Source: Spiribacter sp. 1M189
GTDB lineage: Bacteria > Pseudomonadota > Gammaproteobacteria > Nitrococcales > Nitrococcaceae
Assembly (NCBI RefSeq): GCF_040838345.1
Contig: NZ_JBAKFF010000001.1
Span: 372,001 to 436,000, forward strand
Reading direction: 5' to 3'
Length of the DNA stretch: 64,000 bases
The notes under the pieces are model-generated. The model had not been told where the DNA came from. It saw only the letters and a program-made list of their open reading frames with translations, and did not search any database. Below, in pieces: positions 47,653 through 62,325 of this stretch; the stretch's first letter is position 1, and the number at the start of each line of letters is the position of its first letter. The position numbers and the translations under genes are program-made.

Positions 47653-50265
47653 CTACGGTTGCTGTGGTTTCGTTGCCAGGGCCGCATCATCGCCTCTGGA
47701 CAGGCGTCGCAGCTCATAGACGAGTTCATGAGCCTGTCGTGGCGTCATCTCATCCGGATCGAGCTCGGCGAGGCGCGTCATGACCGCCTCCGCTGCCGGG
47801 TCCGGTGAGGTCGGCGGAGGCGCCGGCGCCTCCGCCGGCCCGCCGAAGAGTGAAAGCTGCGGGGCGGCGGGTTCGCTGGCCTCGAGTCGGGCAAGCTTGG
47901 CCCGGGCCGTGTCCAGGACGGTGGCCGGTACCCCCGCGAGTGCCGCGACCTGCAGGCCATAGCTCTGGCTCGCGGGGCCGTTTCGCACGCTGTGCAGGAA
48001 GACGATCCGCTCGCCATGCTCGACCGCCTCGAGGTGGACGTTGCTCGCCGCCGGGTACTGCTCAGGCAGCGCGGTCATCTCGAAGTAGTGGGTGGCGAAG
48101 AGCGTGAAGGCGCCGATCCGCTCGCAGAGCGCCTCGGCCGTGGCCCAGGCCAGGGCAAGGCCATCGAAGGTGCTTGTTCCACGGCCGATTTCATCCAGCA
48201 GGACCAGGCTTTCGCGGGTGGCGTTGTGGAGGATGTTGGCGGTCTCGGTCATCTCGACCATGAAGGTGGAACGCCCGCCCGCCAGGTCATCCGAGGCGCC
48301 GATGCGGGTGAAGATCCGGTCGATCGGACCGAAGCGTGCCGCGGCGGCGGGAACGAAGCTGCCGATGTGCGCCATGAGGGTGAGCAGGGCGATCTGGCGC
48401 ATGTAAGTGGACTTGCCGCCCATGTTCGGCCCGGTGATGACCAGCATCCGCCGCTGGTCATCAAGGCGGATATCGTTGGGTATGAAGGGGCTCTCGATGC
48501 TGCGCTCCACCACCGGATGGCGGCCGGCGGTGATCTCGATACCGGGCGTGGTATCGAGTACCGGGCGGGTATAGTCGAGGGTCTCGGCGCGCTCGGCGAG
48601 GGCGGCCAGCGCATCGAGCTCGGCGAGTGCCCGGGCAAGGTCCAGAACCCGGTCGAGCCGCTCGCGCAGCCATTCGACGAGTTGTTCGTAAAGGGCCTTT
48701 TCCCGCGCCAGGGCGCGCTCCCGGGCGGAGAGCACCTTGTCCTCGAACGTCTTCAGCTCCGGGGTGATGTAGCGCTCCGCGCCTTTCAGGGTCTGCCGGC
48801 GGATATAGCGCGCCGGGGCCTGCTCGCTCTGTCCGCGGCTGATTTCGATGTAGTAGCCATGCACCCGGTTGTAGCTCACCTTCAGGCTGGGTAGCCCGGT
48901 GGCCTCGCGTTCACGGGCTTCGAGATCGGTCAGAAAGCCATCGGCGTTACGCGAAAGCGCACGGAGTTCATCGAGCTCGCGATCGTGGCCGTCGGCGATG
49001 ACGCCGCCATCGCGAGTCACAACGGGTGGCTGCTCGATAATGGCGCCCTGCAGTGTTTCAGAGATTTCGGGTAGCGGTGCCGCGTCGCCGGCCAGGGCCG
49101 AGAGCCGCTGGTCGCTGAACTCGGCGAGCGCCTGCTCGAGGGCCGGCATGGCGGCCAGCGTATCGCGCAGGCCAGTGAGGTCCCGTGGCCGGGCCGAGCC
49201 CATGCCGATTCGCGCCGCAATCCGCTCGACATCGGCACACCCACGCAGGATATCCCGCAGTGTCGTGCTGCCTTGATCGAGGAGCGCCGCCACGGCCGAC
49301 TGACGCTCGTGCAGCGCGGCCTGGTCCCGCAGCGGGCGGTTGATCCAGCGCCGCAGGGCGCGACTGCCCATGCCCGTCACGGTGGTGTCGAGTACCCCTG
49401 CCAGGGTGTATTCAGCGCCACCGGCAAGATTGGTCTCCAGTTCCAGGTTGCGGCGGCTGGCGGCATCAATGGTGATGGCCGCCTCGGTCTGCTCGATGCG
49501 CAGTTCCCGGATATGCGGCAGTGCCGAGCGCTGTGTATCCGCCACGTATTGCAGCACGGCACCGGCGGCGGCCACGGCCAATGGCATCGACTCAATGCCG
49601 AAACCGCTGAGATCGCGGGTTCCGAAGTGCCCGGTGAGGGCGCGCTCGGCGCCGTCCCGCTGGAAATGCCAGGGTGGACGACGGGTCAGCCCGCGCTCGG
49701 ACGCGGGCGGGAGGTGACCAGAGAAGTCTTCCGACAGCAGTAGCTCGGCGGGGCTGAGCCGCTCCAGCTCGGCGGCGAGCTGCGCGCCTCCCCGGCCTTC
49801 ACACACCGTGTAGCGGCCGGCTGCGAGCTCCAGGCTGGCAAGCCCCCAGTGCTCGCCATCGGCGGCGATGGCGGTCAGCAGGTTGCTGCGCCTCTCCTCG
49901 AGCAGGGCCTCATCGGTAAGGGTGCCGGGGGTGACGACCCGGACCACCTGACGCTCTACCGGCCCCTTGGCAGCGGCAGGGTCGCCGATCTGTTCACAGA
50001 TCGCCACCGACTCGCCACGGGCAAGCAGCCGCGCCAGGTAGCCCTCGTGGCTGTGCACGGGCACGCCGGCCATGGGAATCGGCGCACCCGCCGACTCGCC
50101 CCGCTGGGTGAGGGTGATGTCCAGCAGTTCCGCCGCACGCCTGGCATCTTCATAGAAGAGCTCGTAGAAATCGCCCATGCGGTAGAACAGCAGGGTATCG
50201 GGATGCTCCGATTTGATGCGCAGATACTGCTGCATCATCGGGGTGTGTCCGCCGGCTTTGGTCAT
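47653..50265 (-). CDS. mutS: DNA mismatch repair protein MutS
   Basis: This 870-residue MutS recognises mismatches. The N-terminal mismatch-reading Phe-X-Glu is in GDFYELF. Connector, lever and clamp domains follow. The ATPase has Walker [18 protein letters not shown] and Walker [25 protein letters not shown]-terminal part after SLFGGP carries the clamp/tetramer tail, ending [19 protein letters not shown]. Length fits the MutS1 class. It is the third gene in the minus-strand run yhaO-like, yhaN-like, mutS, seven bases after its neighbour. Confidence 0.97.
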
Positions 50266-50272
50266 CCGATTA

Positions 50273-53200
50273 CTATACGAGTCCCTCAGACCCCGCCGCC
50301 AGCCATGTGCTGATGCGCTGGATGAGATCCGGATCCGCCCGGTGGCCGAGGCGATCGAGCAGCTGGCGGGTCATCGCGTCGGATGTAAGCCGTGGGCGCC
50401 GATCGAGGTGACCGTGTTCGAGCAGCCAGCCCTCGAGCTGATCAACGTGATCCTGCTGAACACGCGCGACTTCGCGATTCCGCAGAGCCGTCACCAGGGC
50501 TTCGGCATCGCCATTGAGGGCCTCCGCCCTTTCCTGCACGCGCTCCACCATGCGGTCGGAAAAGGCGCCGGCGGCAATCAGTACGCCCCGGTCCACGGGT
50601 CGGCCCAGCCCCTGGCGGGCGAGTTCATGCCATGCCCGGGCGATCACGATCCGATCAGAAAGGGTGGCGCCGGCGTCCATTCGGGCATGGCATTCCCGGC
50701 CGGCGGGCGTATCCAACCAGGCCGCCAGCGGCCCCAGATGGCTCAGACGCCAGTCGCTGATGAGCTCGTGGAGGGTTTCCAGCTCGTCACGCAGCAAATG
50801 GAACAGGTGAATCGCCCCGGCATCCGTCCGCGGGTCAACCGCTGGCACCTGCAGGAGCCTCGCATATTCAGCGGGTTCGATTTCCGCCGGAGCCGGCGGC
50901 CGGTCCGGCAGCTCCACCGATGCCAGCGCCGTTGACTGCTCGCTGGCGCCGCGGATGGCACCGAGATCGATGCAGTGCGGTCGATGGCCAGTGGTCTGCG
51001 CCCAGAGTGCCATATCCTCGCGGCGGGCCGTGAGGTAGAGAATCTGTCGCCCCTCGCTGTTGGCAAGTGTCGATAGATTGTGGGCAACGGCGCCAAACCG
51101 GTCGGCATCGGTGTTGGTTAGTGCTTCGTCCAGCGCGAGCGGCAGAGGCGGGCCGTTGCCTTCCTGGTCACGGGCCCAGGCGATGCGGGCAGCGAGCAGC
51201 AGTTGCATGCGTGTGCCCGAGGAGAGCGCCGTGAGCGGTCGAGGGATGTCCTGGCGCAGGTCGCGGGCGACGGGCTGATGGTTGTCATCCACCTCCAGCG
51301 ACCACTGGTGTTGTGTGAATTGCTCGAAGCGGCGCCGCGCGTCGCGGATCAGTCCGGGTTCATGGCGCGCCCGGTAGTCGGCCTCGACTTCAGCAAGCAG
51401 CCAGTCACCCAGGTCCGCCTGCATCCGCGCGGCCCGCTTTTCGGCGAGTGACTCCACGAGTGTGTTCTCTTCGGCGATGGCGCTCGCCAGGGCATCATCG
51501 CCGCCGGCCCGTTCGACTTCGGCCGTCAGTGCCGTGATTTCCCGGGCCAGATCCTCGACGCGGTCGGCTTTTTCGGCCTGCCGGTCGATGGCCTCATCGA
51601 TCTCGGCGGGATCCGTTCTCTCAGTCCACTCGACAAGGGAGGGGTGCTCCTCAAGCGGGGCCCGCAGCTGCTTTTCTGCGAAGCGGGCCTGGTCCAGTTT
51701 GCGTCGGGTTTCGGTGAATTCACCGTGGGCCTCCAGTCGGGCAGCAAGACCCGTCCGGTCATCCACCGGCAGTTCCGCCTGCTCGTAGATCTTTGCCTGG
51801 GCGGTCCTCCGCCCGTCCAGGTCGGCTGAGAGACGCTGATGTCGGCGGGAGCGCTCGTCGAGCTTCGTCTCCAACTCGCGGGCCTGGTCCAGCTGTTCGG
51901 CGAGTGATTCCAGCGCTGTCTGAAGGGTGGCGGTGTCGGGGGTGGCGATATGGGTCCAGGTCGCCAGTCGCTCACGCAATTGCCCCTGCATCCGCTGGAT
52001 CTGCTGATCCTGCTCGGCCAGCCTGGCTGCCTCACGCTCAACCGTCGAACGGGTCGTGTCCAGCTGACGGACAAGGTCCATGAAGCGCTCCAGCCCGAGG
52101 TCTTCGCAGTCGAGATGTTGAAGCCCGCTCTCGCGACGCAGCTCATCGAGATGAGCCCGCGCCTCGGCCACGGCGGTGGAGACGTTGCGATCGCCCGGGC
52201 GGGGGTGTGCGTAGGCCCGAATCGCCGCGCCGGTTGCTGCGATGGTGGCGATGCCGCCGGCTGCAAGAGTCAAAGGATCGCCGGTGAGGATTCCTGCCAG
52301 CAACCCGAGCACGCCACCAGCCGCCGCCGTAGCGGTCAGTCGCAGGGTGGTCCGATCGCCTTTCCGGGGCTCGGGTGTTTCCGTCCGGGCCTGCCAGTAT
52401 CGGACTTCGCGATAGGCCCTCAGCGCTTCTCCGAGGGCCTCGATATGCTGAGGGTCAAATAAAGGTAAGGATTCACTATCACTGTTGAGCGCCATTGATG
52501 CGTGATTGCATTCGGCCTGGGTGGCGGCCAGTGCTTCGGCGGTGTGGCGACGCGACTGCTCCGTGCTGCGCAGCTCGTCGAGCCTGATCCGGCACTCGGA
52601 GAGCAGGGAACGCTCTGGTCGGCCATCGGCCAGACCAGTCGCTTTCAGTGCAGCCTGCAGCTGCCCCTGTTCCTGTTCCAGCACCTGAATCTCTTGCTGC
52701 AATGCCTGGATGTCGCGCGTGTGCTGATCGACGCGCTCACCCTCGTTGCCCTGCAGGCCCTCGAGCACGGCGGGGAACCTGGCAAGGTGGGCTTCCAGCG
52801 CCCGGCGTCCATCGATCGCTTCCCTGAGCTGGCGGGTCTGTCGCAGGCGCGCCATGCCACTCTGGGCGGCGCGTGCATCGTCGAGTGATTGCTGGAGCTC
52901 GGGCAGGCGCTGGCGCTGTTGATCAAGGCTGCGGTAGCTTCGTTCCGTGTCCTCACGTCGGCTACGGGCCGCCTGCCAGGCGCGGCGCTCGTTCTGCGGG
53001 AAGGTGGCAGGCGCCAGTCCTGCTTCGTCCCGGACGCGCTCCAGATCGATACCTCCGGCCAGCGCCTCGCGGAGGCGTCGGCTGAGCCGCGCCTCGCTCT
53101 CGTCATCGGGCGAGATCAGAGTCTCCGCCTGCAGCCAGTAGCAATGCAGGGCATCCGCAGTGGGTAGCGGAGGCGATTCGACTTGCTCGCCGTCGCACAG

Positions 53201-53449
53201 CCAGCGGCGATACGGCCCGTTGCGCTGGGCCTCCCAGCGCCGGGTGCCATCACTGAATCGGGCCGCGATGGAAAGCGCCGGCGGATCCCCCGGGCGCGGT
53301 TCGCCAAGTAGATACTGCAGCGCGCGGATCAGGCTGCTCTTGCCGATGGCGTTGGGCCCGACAATAAAATTGATGCCGGCATGGAAGTCGTTGAGTTGAA
53401 CCGGATCGATGCCGGGCAGCTGGTGGATGTCGATGCCGGTGAGCCGCAT
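50273..53449 (-). CDS. SMC-like repair ATPase (YhaN/SbcC-like) with membrane-like hairpin and C-terminal extension
   Basis: This 1058-residue ABC-type coiled-coil ATPase has Walker [10 protein letters not shown] (31-39), signature [18 protein letters not shown] (near 740) and Walker [12 protein letters not shown] (near 770). Long coiled coils lie between, interrupted at about 365-416 by two hydrophobic helices separated by GDPLT, as in YhaN-type proteins, which may anchor it to the membrane. After the ATPase core about 215 residues of unrecognised helical sequence follow, more than YhaN normally has. The ATG shares its A with the upstream nuclease stop (TGATG). It likely processes DNA ends with that nuclease. 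Confidence 0.82.
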
Positions 53450-54738
53450 CAGTCCGCCTCCTGGGCGAGCATGGCCCGCAGCGCATCCTGGCCGCGCTCA
53501 CGCAGCCACTCGGCAATGCATTCCGCATCAGGATCCTCGCCGGGTAGCTGGCGCCAGCGACTGTCAGCGGTGCCCGACGCGAGATGTCGCTCCGCGGCCC
53601 CGAGCAATTCCCGTCGCTCCGGATCGTCCTGAGCGCGCTCCAGGCTGAGCAGTCGGCGGGCAAGGAGACCCGGTTGATCATCGCGCTCGGCGAGTCTCGA
53701 CAGCGGGATGGTGGGGCGGGTGTCGATCCGGAGCCGCTCGAGGAACCACTGAATCTGCCCGGTCCCCGGCAGTCCCATTGCTCGCCCGCTGTCGGGCAGC
53801 TCGGCCTCCATCGCCTCTCGGGTGAGGTCGCACTCGCCGACCAGCCTGATGCGCAGGCCAACGAGGTCGGGCCAGTCCACCCCCTGGGTCAGGTCTGTGG
53901 CGAGTGCCTCGAGCCGCCGGCTGATGGCGGTTGTGACCGCCGCGCCGGCGGTCACGCCGGTGATATCCACATCCAGGCGTTCCCATCGCAGCGGCGCCAG
54001 GGGACGCTGCTCAAGGCGCTGTATGCGGCCGTCGCGGATCTCCAGCAGCCAGGGCCCGCGAGGGCCGGGTTCACCGGCATCCAGGCCCACGACGCTGCCC
54101 AGATACCCCATCGCCTGGTCAGTACCCAGCGCGTCCGGCTGATGGATATGCCCGAGCAACCAGGCGTCGAAGCCGGTGTTGCGGAGTTGCTCGCTGGTGA
54201 CCGGTGCATAAGTGCTTTGGGACTGGTCTCGGTCGCAGTGGAGCAGTCCCAGTCGGGGGGCCGGGCCGAGGTTCGCGGGAAGGGTCAGGATGGGGCTCTC
54301 GTTGACGCGGAGGGCTGGAAAAGACCAGCCCCAGACGGTGACCTCCTCCGGGTTGCCACTGGCATCGCCGGCTATCCCAACGGACTCCCATTCGCCGCCT
54401 GCGCCCAGCAGTCTGGCATCGGGAACCTCGTCGATCAGCCGCGGGAGAATGTCGACGTCGTGATTGCCGCTAACGGCCAGCAGTTGTATGCCGGCGCGGC
54501 TCAGTCGGGCAGCGCCGGCCTGCAGTCGCGGCAGCGCCTCAAAGTAGTCCTGCGTGGACTCGGCGACATCCCCGGCGAGCAGCACGGCCTGAACGCGTTC
54601 GCGCAGGGCGAGCGCGATGACCCGTTCCCAGGCGGTCGCGGGGGAGAAATCATCGATGCGCGCCGAGAGATGCTCAGGCAACCGGGGCGGGCGGCGGCCG
54701 AGATGCAGATCGCCAACGGCAAGGAGCTTGATGGTCAT
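53449..54738 (-). CDS. SbcD/YhaO-like metallophosphoesterase nuclease
   Basis: This 429-residue calcineurin-like nuclease has the metal-binding series LLAVGDLHLG, VLLAGDVAES, LLAVSGNHDVDI and LLGHIHQPD, all present. It is the expected Mre11/SbcD-type partner of the adjacent SMC-like ATPase. The C-terminal half (about 240-429) is divergent and probably docks the ATPase. The start at 54738 is preferred; reading back to 54774 would enter the hairpin terminator of the DUF1127 gene. This pair may replace SbcCD, or act beside it. Confidence 0.85.
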   Translation of the reverse strand: MTIKLLAVGDLHLGRRPPRLPEHLSARIDDFSPATAWERVIALALRERVQAVLLAGDVAESTQDYFEALPRLQAGAARLSRAGIQLLAVSGNHDVDILPRLIDEVPDARLLGAGGEWESVGIAGDASGNPEEVTVWGWSFPALRVNESPILTLPANLGPAPRLGLLHCDRDQSQSTYAPVTSEQLRNTGFDAWLLGHIHQPDALGTDQAMGYLGSVVGLDAGEPGPRGPWLLEIRDGRIQRLEQRPLAPLRWERLDVDITGVTAGAAVTTAISRRLEALATDLTQGVDWPDLVGLRIRLVGECDLTREAMEAELPDSGRAMGLPGTGQIQWFLERLRIDTRPTIPLSRLAERDDQPGLLARRLLSLERAQDDPERRELLGAAERHLASGTADSRWRQLPGEDPDAECIAEWLRERGQDALRAMLAQEAD

Positions 54739-54767
54739 TGCCCCAATGCTCCGAGATCCGACCGTCT

Positions 54768-54810
54768 TAAACAAGTCGACCGCCGGTGCAAGCCTGCACC
54801 GACGGTCGAC
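54768..54810 (-). terminator. Intrinsic terminator of the DUF1127 gene
   Basis: GTCGACCG and CGGTCGAC (outer arms 54775-54782 and 54803-54810), plus GGTGCA and TGCACC (inner arms), form a long hairpin with one internal mismatch pair and the loop AGCC. On the minus strand TTGTTT follows. It separates the DUF1127 gene from the repair operon. Confidence 0.75.
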
Positions 54811-54830
54811 TCAGCGTTGCCGTATCAGGG

Positions 54831-55145
54831 CTACTGTCGGGTTTCGCGCGGCATCCGGGCCCTGGGCTCGTGGCGTTCGGCCGGTGCACCGGCGCGCTTG
54901 ACCAGCCGGATCTGCCCAAGAGGCTGCGTGTAGATGCGAGTCAGCTGATACTCGCTGACCCGCCCGGCCTCTCTGCGGCTCACGCCGATATCATCGAGCA
55001 GATGGCCGTTCAGCCGGCTCAAGGACTCAGCGGCACGGTTACGGCGACGGTTGCGCAGCCAGTGGCCGATGGCGCGGGACAGCCCCATCGGCGGCATGGC
55101 CGGCATGTAGAGTTCGGTATCGTGGCGATCTGTCTGGCCGACCAT
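54831..55145 (-). CDS. DUF1127 (YjiS-like) protein
   Basis: This 104-residue basic protein has the DUF1127 core AIGHWLRNRRRNRAAESLSRLNGHLLDDIGVSRREA. Homologues are small Arg-rich proteins linked to RNA or phosphate and virulence gene control in some Alphaproteobacteria; the role here is unknown. The C-terminal 40 residues (about 65-104) are extra and poorly conserved. A very strong GGAGGTGA ribosome site is present. It is divergent from a LysR gene, with a TTCAG-N5-CTGAA inverted repeat just upstream of its ribosome site. Confidence 0.85.
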   Translation of the reverse strand: MVGQTDRHDTELYMPAMPPMGLSRAIGHWLRNRRRNRAAESLSRLNGHLLDDIGVSRREAGRVSEYQLTRIYTQPLGQIRLVKRAGAPAERHEPRARMPRETRQ

Positions 55146-55160
55146 GGTGCTTCACCTCCG

Positions 55161-55175
55161 TTCAGTTGTGCTGAA
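55161..55175. promoter_or_regulatory. LysR-type box near the DUF1127 start
   Basis: TTCAG-TTGTG-CTGAA is a perfect five-base inverted repeat containing the LysR T-N11-A layout. It lies 16 bases before the DUF1127 ATG and immediately before its ribosome site. Confidence 0.6.
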
Positions 55176-55229
55176 TGTGCATGGCGGGAGCCCTGTGTTT
55201 CCCGTCAGGGATATTGTCTCCACGGAAGT

Positions 55230-55258
55230 TTGTTCAGGCAACTGAAAAAGAATAAACT
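55230..55258 (+). promoter_or_regulatory. Likely lysR promoter containing a second LysR-type box
   Basis: TTGTTC (55230-55235), 17 bases and TAAACT (55253-55258) form a weak sigma-70 promoter. TTCAG-GCAA-CTGAA (55233-55246) is a second copy of the inverted repeat and sits between and over the promoter elements, as expected for autorepression. Confidence 0.55.
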
Positions 55259-55305
55259 TTATAGTGAATTTTCTTGAACCATATGGCCATCATCGGGAGA
55301 CCGCG

Positions 55306-56223
55306 ATGTCCACACCTACATCCCCCAATTCGCCTCAGGGGCTCCCCCTGCTGGATATGGAGATCCTCCGCACGTTTGTAGCCATTGCCGAGACCGGCAG
55401 CTTTTCGCGGGCCGCGCAGCAGATCTACCGGACGCCTTCTGCGGTGAGCATGCAGATTAAACGGCTTGAGGAAATGCTTGGTCGGGCCCTGTTCGTGCGA
55501 GAACCACGACAGGTCCACCTCACGCCGGAAGGCGAGACCATGTTGGGTTATGCCCGACAGCTCCTCGAACTCAATGACGAGGCGGTGGGCCAGTTTCTCT
55601 CACCACAGGTGGGTGGGACCGTGCGGCTGGGCGCACCAGACGACCTTGGGACCCGGGTGCTGCCGGGTATCCTCTCGCAGTTCAGTCGCAGCTTTCCGGC
55701 GGTCCAGGTCAACGTCCGGGTGGGGCGCAGTCCGGATCTGATGCGCCGTCTGGATATCGGCGAGCTGGACATCGCGCTTTTGATTGCCGAGGCGGGTAAC
55801 CGTCCACACCCCCTGGCCGAGCCCATCTATCGCGAGCCGCTGGTCTGGGCGGGCCGAGAGGGTGGGGTTGCCCTGCAGCGATCACCGCTGCCGATCGCCG
55901 TCGCCGACCGCGGCTGTGCCTGGCGGCGCATGGCGTTGGAGGCCCTTAACCGTAGTGGGCACCGCTATCGGATTGCCTACACCTGTGAGCACACGGGTGC
56001 CCAGGAGGCCGCCATCCATCAGGATATTGCCGTCACACCGTTCCCTCGCGGGCTGGTGCAACCGCCCTTGCGGGTCATCGAGGAGGATGAAGCCGGTCTG
56101 TCGCCCCTCGGCGATTACGAGGTGCTCCTGCTGCGCATGCCGGCGCGAGGAGCCGCCGTCGAGGCGCTGGCCCAGCATGTGGTGGACCATTTTGCCGGCA
56201 CTCCCAATGGTGCCGCGGCGTGA
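55306..56223 (+). CDS. LysR-family transcriptional regulator (LrhA/HexA-like)
   Basis: This 305-residue regulator has the N-terminal winged helix LLDMEILRTFVAIAETGSFSRAAQQIYRTPSAVSMQIKRLEEMLGRALF. A PBP2-like effector domain (about 105-300) follows. The HTH and the RQLLELNDEAV linker resemble the LrhA/PecT/HexA branch, which often controls motility and surface traits. The ATG at 55306 has GGGAG upstream. Two identical-arm inverted repeats separate it from the DUF1127 gene, a likely target. The effector is unknown. Confidence 0.9.
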   Translation: MSTPTSPNSPQGLPLLDMEILRTFVAIAETGSFSRAAQQIYRTPSAVSMQIKRLEEMLGRALFVREPRQVHLTPEGETMLGYARQLLELNDEAVGQFLSPQVGGTVRLGAPDDLGTRVLPGILSQFSRSFPAVQVNVRVGRSPDLMRRLDIGELDIALLIAEAGNRPHPLAEPIYREPLVWAGREGGVALQRSPLPIAVADRGCAWRRMALEALNRSGHRYRIAYTCEHTGAQEAAIHQDIAVTPFPRGLVQPPLRVIEEDEAGLSPLGDYEVLLLRMPARGAAVEALAQHVVDHFAGTPNGAAA

Positions 56224-61222: not shown

Positions 61223-62325
61223 ATGTCGCCGAGATCATCGTCCCGCAGCAGGAAGTGGCCTGGCTGCCCTGGGCCGTGCAGTACTTCTTCTTCGTGGGCC
61301 TCGCCGCCACGGCCGCCATCATCGCCGGCGCCGGTGAGTTCCTGCGCGGTGGTCGCTGGCAGCGGCTTCAGCCCGCGGCGCTGCTGGTGGCGGTCTCCAC
61401 GGGGGTGGTCGCACCGATTGCCCTGCTCGCCGATCTGCATCAGCCCGGTCGGTTCTATCACTTCTACACCGATATCACCCCCTGGTCATGGATGTCTCTG
61501 GGCGCGCTGATTCTGCCAGTATTCATGACCGGGCTGATTGGCTACTGGGTCCTCTGGCAGCGCGAGCGCTTCAAGGAGCAGGGCGCACCCCGGTGGCTGG
61601 CGCTCTGGACGGCGGGGCACTGGTCCGGTCGGAGCCTGAGGCCGTGGCTCGCCACGCTGATGATCATCGGCGCACTGGGCATTCTGGTCTACACGGGTTC
61701 CGAGGTGATGATCGTCAAGGCCCGGGCGCTCTGGCATACCGAGTGGCTCATCCTGAACCTGGCGATGACCGCGTTCATGGGAAGCCTGGCGGCGATGCTC
61801 TATGCCCAGGCGCGCATCTTCAAGGCCACCGCCGGTGACCAGCGCTTTACGCTGCGTCTGTTCATGCTGGCGCTGCTGGGCACGGGGGCCGGTGCGCTGG
61901 GCTGGGCAGCGGCCGGCTGGATAAACGACTCGGTATCTTTCCAGGCCTTCGGCCGCCTGATTGAACAGTTCGCCTACTGGCGCATCGTCTTCGCCCTGTC
62001 GGTGGGCGTCGGCATCTCGCTGCTCGTGGCGGCGCTGTGGATGCTGCGTACGCCCCGGGGCGTGGCACTCTCCTGGTGGATGGCGCCACTGGCGCTTCTG
62101 GCCGCCTGGTCGTTCCGTTGGGCGGTCCTGATGGATGTGCAGACGGTGCCCAAATATGGCGCCGGGCTCTATCCCTACCACTTGCCGTTGGGCAGCGATG
62201 GGCTGCTCGGCATTCTGGGCATCTTTGGTCTCTGGCTGGCGGTGATGATGGTCCTCCCCGGCATCATCGCCGGCCGTGAGGCCGCCAACGAATCAATGAA
62301 AATGAGCGAGGTGGCTCATGGATAA
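61219..62325 (+). CDS. ttrC: TtrC, quinol-oxidising membrane subunit (NrfD-like)
   Basis: This 368-residue NrfD/PsrC-type integral membrane protein has about nine helices. Examples are AVQYFFFVGLAATAAIIAGAGEFL, APIALLADLHQPGRFYHFY and LMIIGALGILVYTGSEVMIVKARALWHTEWLILNLAMTAFMG. It oxidises quinol and anchors TtrAB at the periplasmic face. It overlaps ttrB by four bases and ttrA by eight, so the three subunits are translationally coupled. Confidence 0.92.
   Translation: MNVAEIIVPQQEVAWLPWAVQYFFFVGLAATAAIIAGAGEFLRGGRWQRLQPAALLVAVSTGVVAPIALLADLHQPGRFYHFYTDITPWSWMSLGALILPVFMTGLIGYWVLWQRERFKEQGAPRWLALWTAGHWSGRSLRPWLATLMIIGALGILVYTGSEVMIVKARALWHTEWLILNLAMTAFMGSLAAMLYAQARIFKATAGDQRFTLRLFMLALLGTGAGALGWAAAGWINDSVSFQAFGRLIEQFAYWRIVFALSVGVGISLLVAALWMLRTPRGVALSWWMAPLALLAAWSFRWAVLMDVQTVPKYGAGLYPYHLPLGSDGLLGILGIFGLWLAVMMVLPGIIAGREAANESMKMSEVAHG

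Follow-up and report, generated by a model that had tools for sequence, protein, structure and literature searches.

A compact divergent LysR-type control region between an LrhA-like regulator gene and a DUF1127-type small protein gene, proposed from conservation

The gap between a DUF1127-type small protein gene and the divergent gene of an LrhA-like LysR regulator probably serves as a compact divergent control region, through which the LysR protein would repress its own gene and, together with a signal, activate the DUF1127 gene. The gap lies in a 64-kb window (the whole stretch of DNA analysed), and its conserved block appears to combine two divergent sigma-70-like promoters with two LysR sites, A and B (Table 1). 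An earlier, sequence-only reading had picked out two inverted repeats in the gap, boxes 1 and 2, both of which are present as described, and had treated them as an operative pair under an LrhA-like regulator. Box 2 coincides with site A and, as that reading proposed, lies inside the putative lysR promoter, which is conserved; its conserved partner is site B rather than box 1. Since box 2 belongs to a conserved LysR-type operator placed over the predicted lysR promoter, beside LrhA-like and DUF1127 genes, the autorepression and DUF1127 control predicted at the time are still the best reading, and what falls away is the route through boxes 1 and 2 as a pair.

Table 1. Genes and putative regulatory features of the divergent gap, in window coordinates
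Feature	Position	Strand	Basis or remark
DUF1127-type small protein gene, presumed target	54831..55145	-	ORF of 104 aa; PF06568 match
DUF1127 Shine-Dalgarno CCTCC	55155-55159	read on +	sequence
Box 1, TTCAGTTGTGCTGAA	55161-55175		in the putative DUF1127 leader; perhaps an additional LysR site of this lineage
Putative DUF1127 sigma-70 promoter	55213..55241	-	-35 TTGCCT 55241..55236, 17-bp spacer, -10 GACAAT 55218..55213
Putative lysR sigma-70 promoter	55230..55258	+	-35 TTGTTC 55230-55235, 17-bp spacer, -10 TAAACT 55253-55258
Box 2 = site A, TTCAGGCAACTGAA	55233-55246		lysR promoter spacer; overlaps putative DUF1127 -35
Site B, here GTGAATTTTCTTGAA, consensus TTCAR-N5-YTGAA	55264-55278		conserved dyad; absent from the sequence-only reading
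LrhA-like LysR-type regulator, 305 aa	55306..56223	+	PF00126, PF03466, NCBIfam, PDB

The regulator is a LysR-type protein by both of its domains, scoring 84.1 bits for HTH_1 (cut-off 26.6) and 85.1 bits for LysR_substrate (cut-off 28). Its best NCBIfam match is LrhA (NF011673) at 165 bits against an equivalog cut-off of 530 bits, so we call it LrhA-like rather than LrhA; its best PDB match, 7yhj, is likewise named LrhA. E. coli LrhA is thus the closest named model, the PDB match covering most of the window protein. LrhA is grouped with HexA and PecT, and we know of no DUF1127 partner beside lrhA. A search of phage records with the lysR DNA returned no match.

On the other side of the gap, the 104-aa protein carries the N-terminal motif YMPAMPP and scores 25.0 bits for PF06568, above the Pfam gathering cut-off of 23.3, which places it in the DUF1127 family. 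A divergent small ORF precedes lysR in all 28 genomes used. PF06568 was matched at E 0.1 or better by 14 of these 28 ORFs, and in a profile search it exceeded its cut-off in 6 of 54 genomes of the order, so the DUF1127 label is marginal for half of the 28; for ORFs with no such match, membership was taken from alignment A1. A PAMPP segment occurs in 19 and the D-I/L/M-G segment typical of DUF1127 in 23 of the 28 small proteins. Three (L011, L012 and L019) have neither in exact form and therefore owe their assignment to alignment A1. Two ORFs of 56 aa (L017, L021) keep PAMPP and not D-I/L/M-G, five (L014, L032, L070-L072) keep D-I/L/M-G and not PAMPP, and L011 and L012, despite missing both, have the C-terminal part common to the genus; the two segments may be separate functional units. 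Next to the DUF1127 gene, the minus-strand region 47653-54774 encodes a metallophosphoesterase with weak SbcD/Mre11 similarity and includes a 1058-aa ORF in which an apparent P-loop, GPNAIGKSS, can be seen by eye. The ORF beyond it is presumably MutS-like, and the region is possibly a DNA-repair neighbourhood.

The gene pair itself is constant: in each of the 28 genomes, a DUF1127-type small ORF points away from the gene of an LrhA-like LysR regulator, an arrangement that close linkage alone could explain, with no regulation involved. Orthologues of the regulator were found in 12 of the 13 other genomes of the genus (the remaining one, G009, is an assembly 86% complete), at E 1e-80 in 22 of 54 genomes of the order with the window's own counted, and in a class-wide sample of 369 genomes that supplied three more for the set. 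Over the loci compared, which were all but L070 and L071, they are 52-97% identical, with L041 (the same divergon as L072) at 43%, and the next matches in the same genomes, among the matches listed, reach 41% or less. Excluded from the counts were L023-L030 (LysR identity 35-38%; no module, the closest match having 8-9 of 20 positions mismatched), L042-L046 (best 6-9 mismatches), L034-L040 as duplicates of loci already counted, and L069 and L074-L078 as pattern matches lacking the gene pair.

We then asked how specifically the conserved block accompanies the regulator, using a pattern of 20 conserved columns with up to 2 mismatches. It matched 23 of 59 relatives, namely all 22 with a LysR orthologue and 1 of the 37 without, the latter (G054) having neither LysR nor DUF1127 adjoining the match. 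Because the 22 matched genomes helped to build the pattern, this 22/22 is not independent; only G104 and G346 are. These two emerged from the search at class level, in which 13 of 369 genomes matched: five of the build set, six without the gene pair, and G104 and G346, which lie outside the build set, were picked up purely by the pattern and have the LysR/DUF1127 pair as well. A reversed control pattern gave 9 matches in the same 369 genomes, which puts the six pair-less matches at chance level. With its 3 mismatches, a known orthologue, G223, escaped the search. Members of several families in the class carry the unit (L014-L022, L031-L033, L070-L072); at E 1e-70 the regulator was found in 5 of the 369 genomes, the window's own counted, and most genomes drawn lacked the unit. 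Such patchy occurrence suggests loss or transfer.

Alignment of the 150 bp upstream of lysR from 26 loci revealed about 65 columns that are free of gaps in all orthologous gap regions, while the remainder hardly aligns. Mean information is 1.32 bits at 55230-55258 and 1.11 bits at site B, compared with 0.19 bits at 55221-55229 and 0.44 bits at 55176-55210. For a 28-row set we dropped L041, whose module is identical to that of L072, and added L070-L072, whose placement by the pattern makes them gap-free from the outset. Across these 28 loci, 13 columns never vary: A55213, T55217, T55234, A55236, A55241, A55245, A55246, A55248, T55253, T55265, A55267, T55275 and A55277. Several of them mark the proposed promoters. 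In the putative DUF1127 -10 element, A55213 (T6) and T55217 (A2) are kept in 28/28, and the TTG and last T of its -35 element correspond to A55241, A55240, C55239 and A55236, kept in 28, 26, 27 and 28 of the 28; transcription would start near 55206. On the lysR side, the TTG of the -35 element is kept in 23, 21 and 23 of 26 rows, and positions T1, A2, A4 and T6 of the -10 element in 26, 24, 26 and 25, for a predicted start near 55265. Reading the lysR -10 element as TATAGT (55260) was rejected, because those columns are unconserved and TAAACT is conserved. A generic sigma-70 consensus scanner reported no promoter in this region in either direction, so that the promoter assignments rest on conservation and spacing.

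The same block holds the two strongest dyads of the gap. Across 150 scanned centres, the mean was 1.33 of 5 pairs (sd 0.50); site B, centred on 55271, ranked first with a mean of 3.64, and site A, centred on 55239.5, second with 3.07, the centres 55235.5 (2.93) and 55260 (2.79) scoring not far below site A. In site B, the T55265-N11-A55277 pair and A55267/T55275 are invariant in all 26 rows of the alignment and in all 28 of the larger set, and the T-N11-A falls outside the hexamers of both promoters. The site B dyad is stronger in the 15 distant genomes than in the 13 of the genus (4.00 versus 3.23), and its centre lies at -65 from the putative DUF1127 start at 55206, matching the T-N11-A dyad near -65 of LysR systems. 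We thus regard site B as the better candidate LysR box of the two. Site A shows the opposite trend, with 3.92 of 5 pairs in the genus (13 genomes) versus 2.33 in the 15 outside it, where it reads TTCAATCAAACGAA or similar and has a weak dyad. T55234, A55236, A55241, A55245 and A55246 are invariant in 28/28, and what is mostly conserved is TTCA-N2-CAA-N2-GAA rather than five-base arms. Site A overlaps the predicted DUF1127 -35 element, the place expected of a second LysR site.

These data bear on the sequence-only reading, which had ascribed the same arms and the same T-N11-A to both boxes and had named conservation of the repeats in orthologous gaps as its test. The arms are identical and the T-N11-A of box 1 (T55162-A55174) is centred on its dyad; box 2 is 14 bp long, and its T-N11-A (T55234-A55246) is not centred on its dyad at 55239.5. 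As for conservation, the site of box 2 is kept in the orthologous gaps and its perfect arms are present in 5 of 28 genomes (L001, L002, L011, L012 and L013), and box 1 did not pass, occurring in 2 of 28, the window species (L001) and its nearest relative (L002, genome G010).

Taken together, the arrangement points to the following mechanism. A LysR tetramer would bind site B, the recognition site with its T-N11-A, and site A, the activation site, with about 31.5 bp, or three helical turns, between the two centres. Counted from the predicted lysR start (about 55265), site A falls in the promoter spacer and site B at about +6; bound LysR would cover the lysR promoter and start, and we propose that it thereby represses its own gene. 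Counted from the predicted DUF1127 start (about 55206), the same sites fall at about -34 and -65, from where the complex could recruit or reposition RNA polymerase and so, given a signal, activate the DUF1127 gene. Box 1, in the window species and its nearest relative, would lie at about +31 to +45 of the DUF1127 leader and might make binding tighter or serve as a roadblock. What the sequences show is conservation, promoter geometry and a constant gene pairing; that this LysR protein binds, where both transcripts start, which way the genes are regulated, the signal and whatever box 1 does are inferred from them.

Alternatively, LysR could repress both genes, with sites A and B blocking lysR and site A over the -35 element, joined here by box 1 downstream, blocking the DUF1127 gene until a signal arrives. 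Site A does overlap both the putative DUF1127 -35 element and the lysR spacer, and box 1, downstream of the predicted DUF1127 start, is in a natural position for a roadblock. The -65/-34 placement, however, is the usual activator geometry in the parts of PMC8407307 available, and 26 of the 28 genomes have no box 1; we regard repression of both genes as unlikely.

Box 1 also underlies a second alternative, in which boxes 1 and 2 are a working operator pair in the window organism. Their identical five-base arms are no chance match: when the 160-bp gap was shuffled by mononucleotide 200,000 times, at least one TTCAG-N4/5-CTGAA site arose in 60 shuffles and two in none, although any repeat with 5-bp arms and a gap of 4-5 was common (4,833 of 20,000 shuffled gaps). 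In the 64-kb window, boxes 1 and 2 are the only exact occurrences, where 0.06 were expected. Box 1 is also the single genome-wide copy of TTCAR-N5-YTGAA (reversed control, 0), a pattern found in 10 of 200,000 shuffled leaders, and it has the top score of 127,972 window positions on a site-B matrix built with L001 and L002 left out. It is identical to G010 at 15/15 bases, compared with 24/37 for 55176-55212, but the flanks 55146-55160 and 55279-55305 are fully identical as well, which makes this a weak argument; its mean information in the 26-row alignment is 0.56 bits. Against such a pair, the module does without box 1 in 26 of 28 genomes and site B, three helical turns from site A, is kept in 28/28, so that we consider the pair improbable. 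Possibly, box 1 is a recent lineage-specific third operator, perhaps compensating for a fading site B. In leave-one-out scoring of site B (n = 28), G010 was second weakest (10.8) and the window species fourth weakest (13.8), yet L022 (10.4) and L015 (13.2) have equally weak sites and no box 1. On the site-B matrix that leaves out L001 and L002, site B of the window species comes fourth in the window. The next-best scores on it fall at 53360 (13.85), within a long ORF, and at 62292 (13.68).

That the conservation reflects two overlapping sigma-70 promoters and nothing else, the inverted repeats being incidental, would account for the invariant A55213, T55217, A55236, A55241 and T55253, which fall in -10 or -35 elements. 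It leaves T55265, A55267, T55275, A55277, A55245, A55246 and A55248, all outside the hexamers, as well as the top rank of the site B dyad, and we hold it to be very improbable. There is next to no likelihood that box 1 works in RNA as a hairpin beside the DUF1127 ribosome site: it is indeed an inverted repeat directly 5' of the Shine-Dalgarno sequence, where the sequence-only reading had put it, but leader folding speaks against a hairpin, with a z-score of 0.07 and the arms of box 1 left unpaired in the minimum-energy fold, and the box is present in only 2/28 genomes. No Rfam element was matched within 54800-55400 down to E 1.

We next searched the genome for further targets. The 1.95-Mb genome contains four exact TTCAG-N4/5-CTGAA sites, so the scan that the sequence-only reading had recommended for finding a regulon yielded two beyond boxes 1 and 2, both inside long open frames. 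TTCAA-N5-TTGAA with 1 mismatch was found at 9 places, versus 5 for its reversed control. These 9 and the two other TTCAG-N4-CTGAA sites all (11/11) lie under open frames of 195 codons or more, a length that does not prove coding where GC content is high; some of these frames we take to be PNPase, HflK, TsaD and LeuA. One site (L082) overlaps, by eye, a stop codon and a Shine-Dalgarno sequence just 5' of an ATG, and may be regulatory. Site B of the genome itself differs from TTCAA-N5-TTGAA at 2 positions, so that it and sites of like strength would be missed by the 1-mismatch search. With a 26-bp pattern and up to 3 mismatches the module turned up nowhere else in the genome, and none of the patterns run pointed clearly to another target.

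The layout corresponds well to known LysR systems. In the parts of PMC8407307 available, the general design comprises a bound region of about 50-60 bp, a T-N11-A close to -65, an activation site covering the -35 element and frequent autoregulation. LysR regulators with divergent targets, as described there, share with the present case the T-N11-A near -65, the second site over -35 and the overlapped promoter of the regulator, and differ in that the target here is a DUF1127-type small protein. The nearest precedent for the target is Brucella VtlR, a LysR-family regulator of three DUF1127 genes and the sRNA AbcR2 according to the accessible portion of PMC12595884; its motif, CAATGCAGCCATGCA in the same portion, matches the gap at best in 10 of 15 bases over both strands, so by motif the region is not of the VtlR type. 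Conversely, the motif proposed for E. coli YhaJ in the part of PMC11739112 at hand, TCAAATTTTTTGAAGA, resembles site B, while regulator and targets differ, so the likeness is one of motif only. The DUF1127 protein here, at 104 aa, is longer than Salmonella YjiS (54 aa; PMC11707872, in part) and the short Agrobacterium DUF1127 proteins (47-48 aa; PMC12501420, in part). Among the matches listed in the open-access literature, we found no LysR-DUF1127 regulatory link besides VtlR, nor any description of an LrhA-like/DUF1127 divergent unit.

Overall, this is a LysR-type control region of ordinary, familiar design with an unusual target, and it would add to VtlR, the one LysR-DUF1127 link among the papers listed, a gammaproteobacterial case with a motif unlike that of VtlR. 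More tentatively, and as something we hold to be possible rather than likely, the LrhA-like regulator and the DUF1127-type protein might form a dedicated single-target switch across several gammaproteobacterial families, built on a control region so constrained that about 65 gap-free bp serve both LysR sites and the promoters of either gene. In the species pair with box 1, this switch would be undergoing rewiring by gain of a strong operator, box 1, in the target leader while the ancestral site B decays. DUF1127 proteins are widespread, and differing roles have been reported for them in the parts of the literature at hand, including RNA binding and interaction with PhoR. A regulator conserved beside a DUF1127 gene offers a handle on when such a protein is produced and, hence, on its role.
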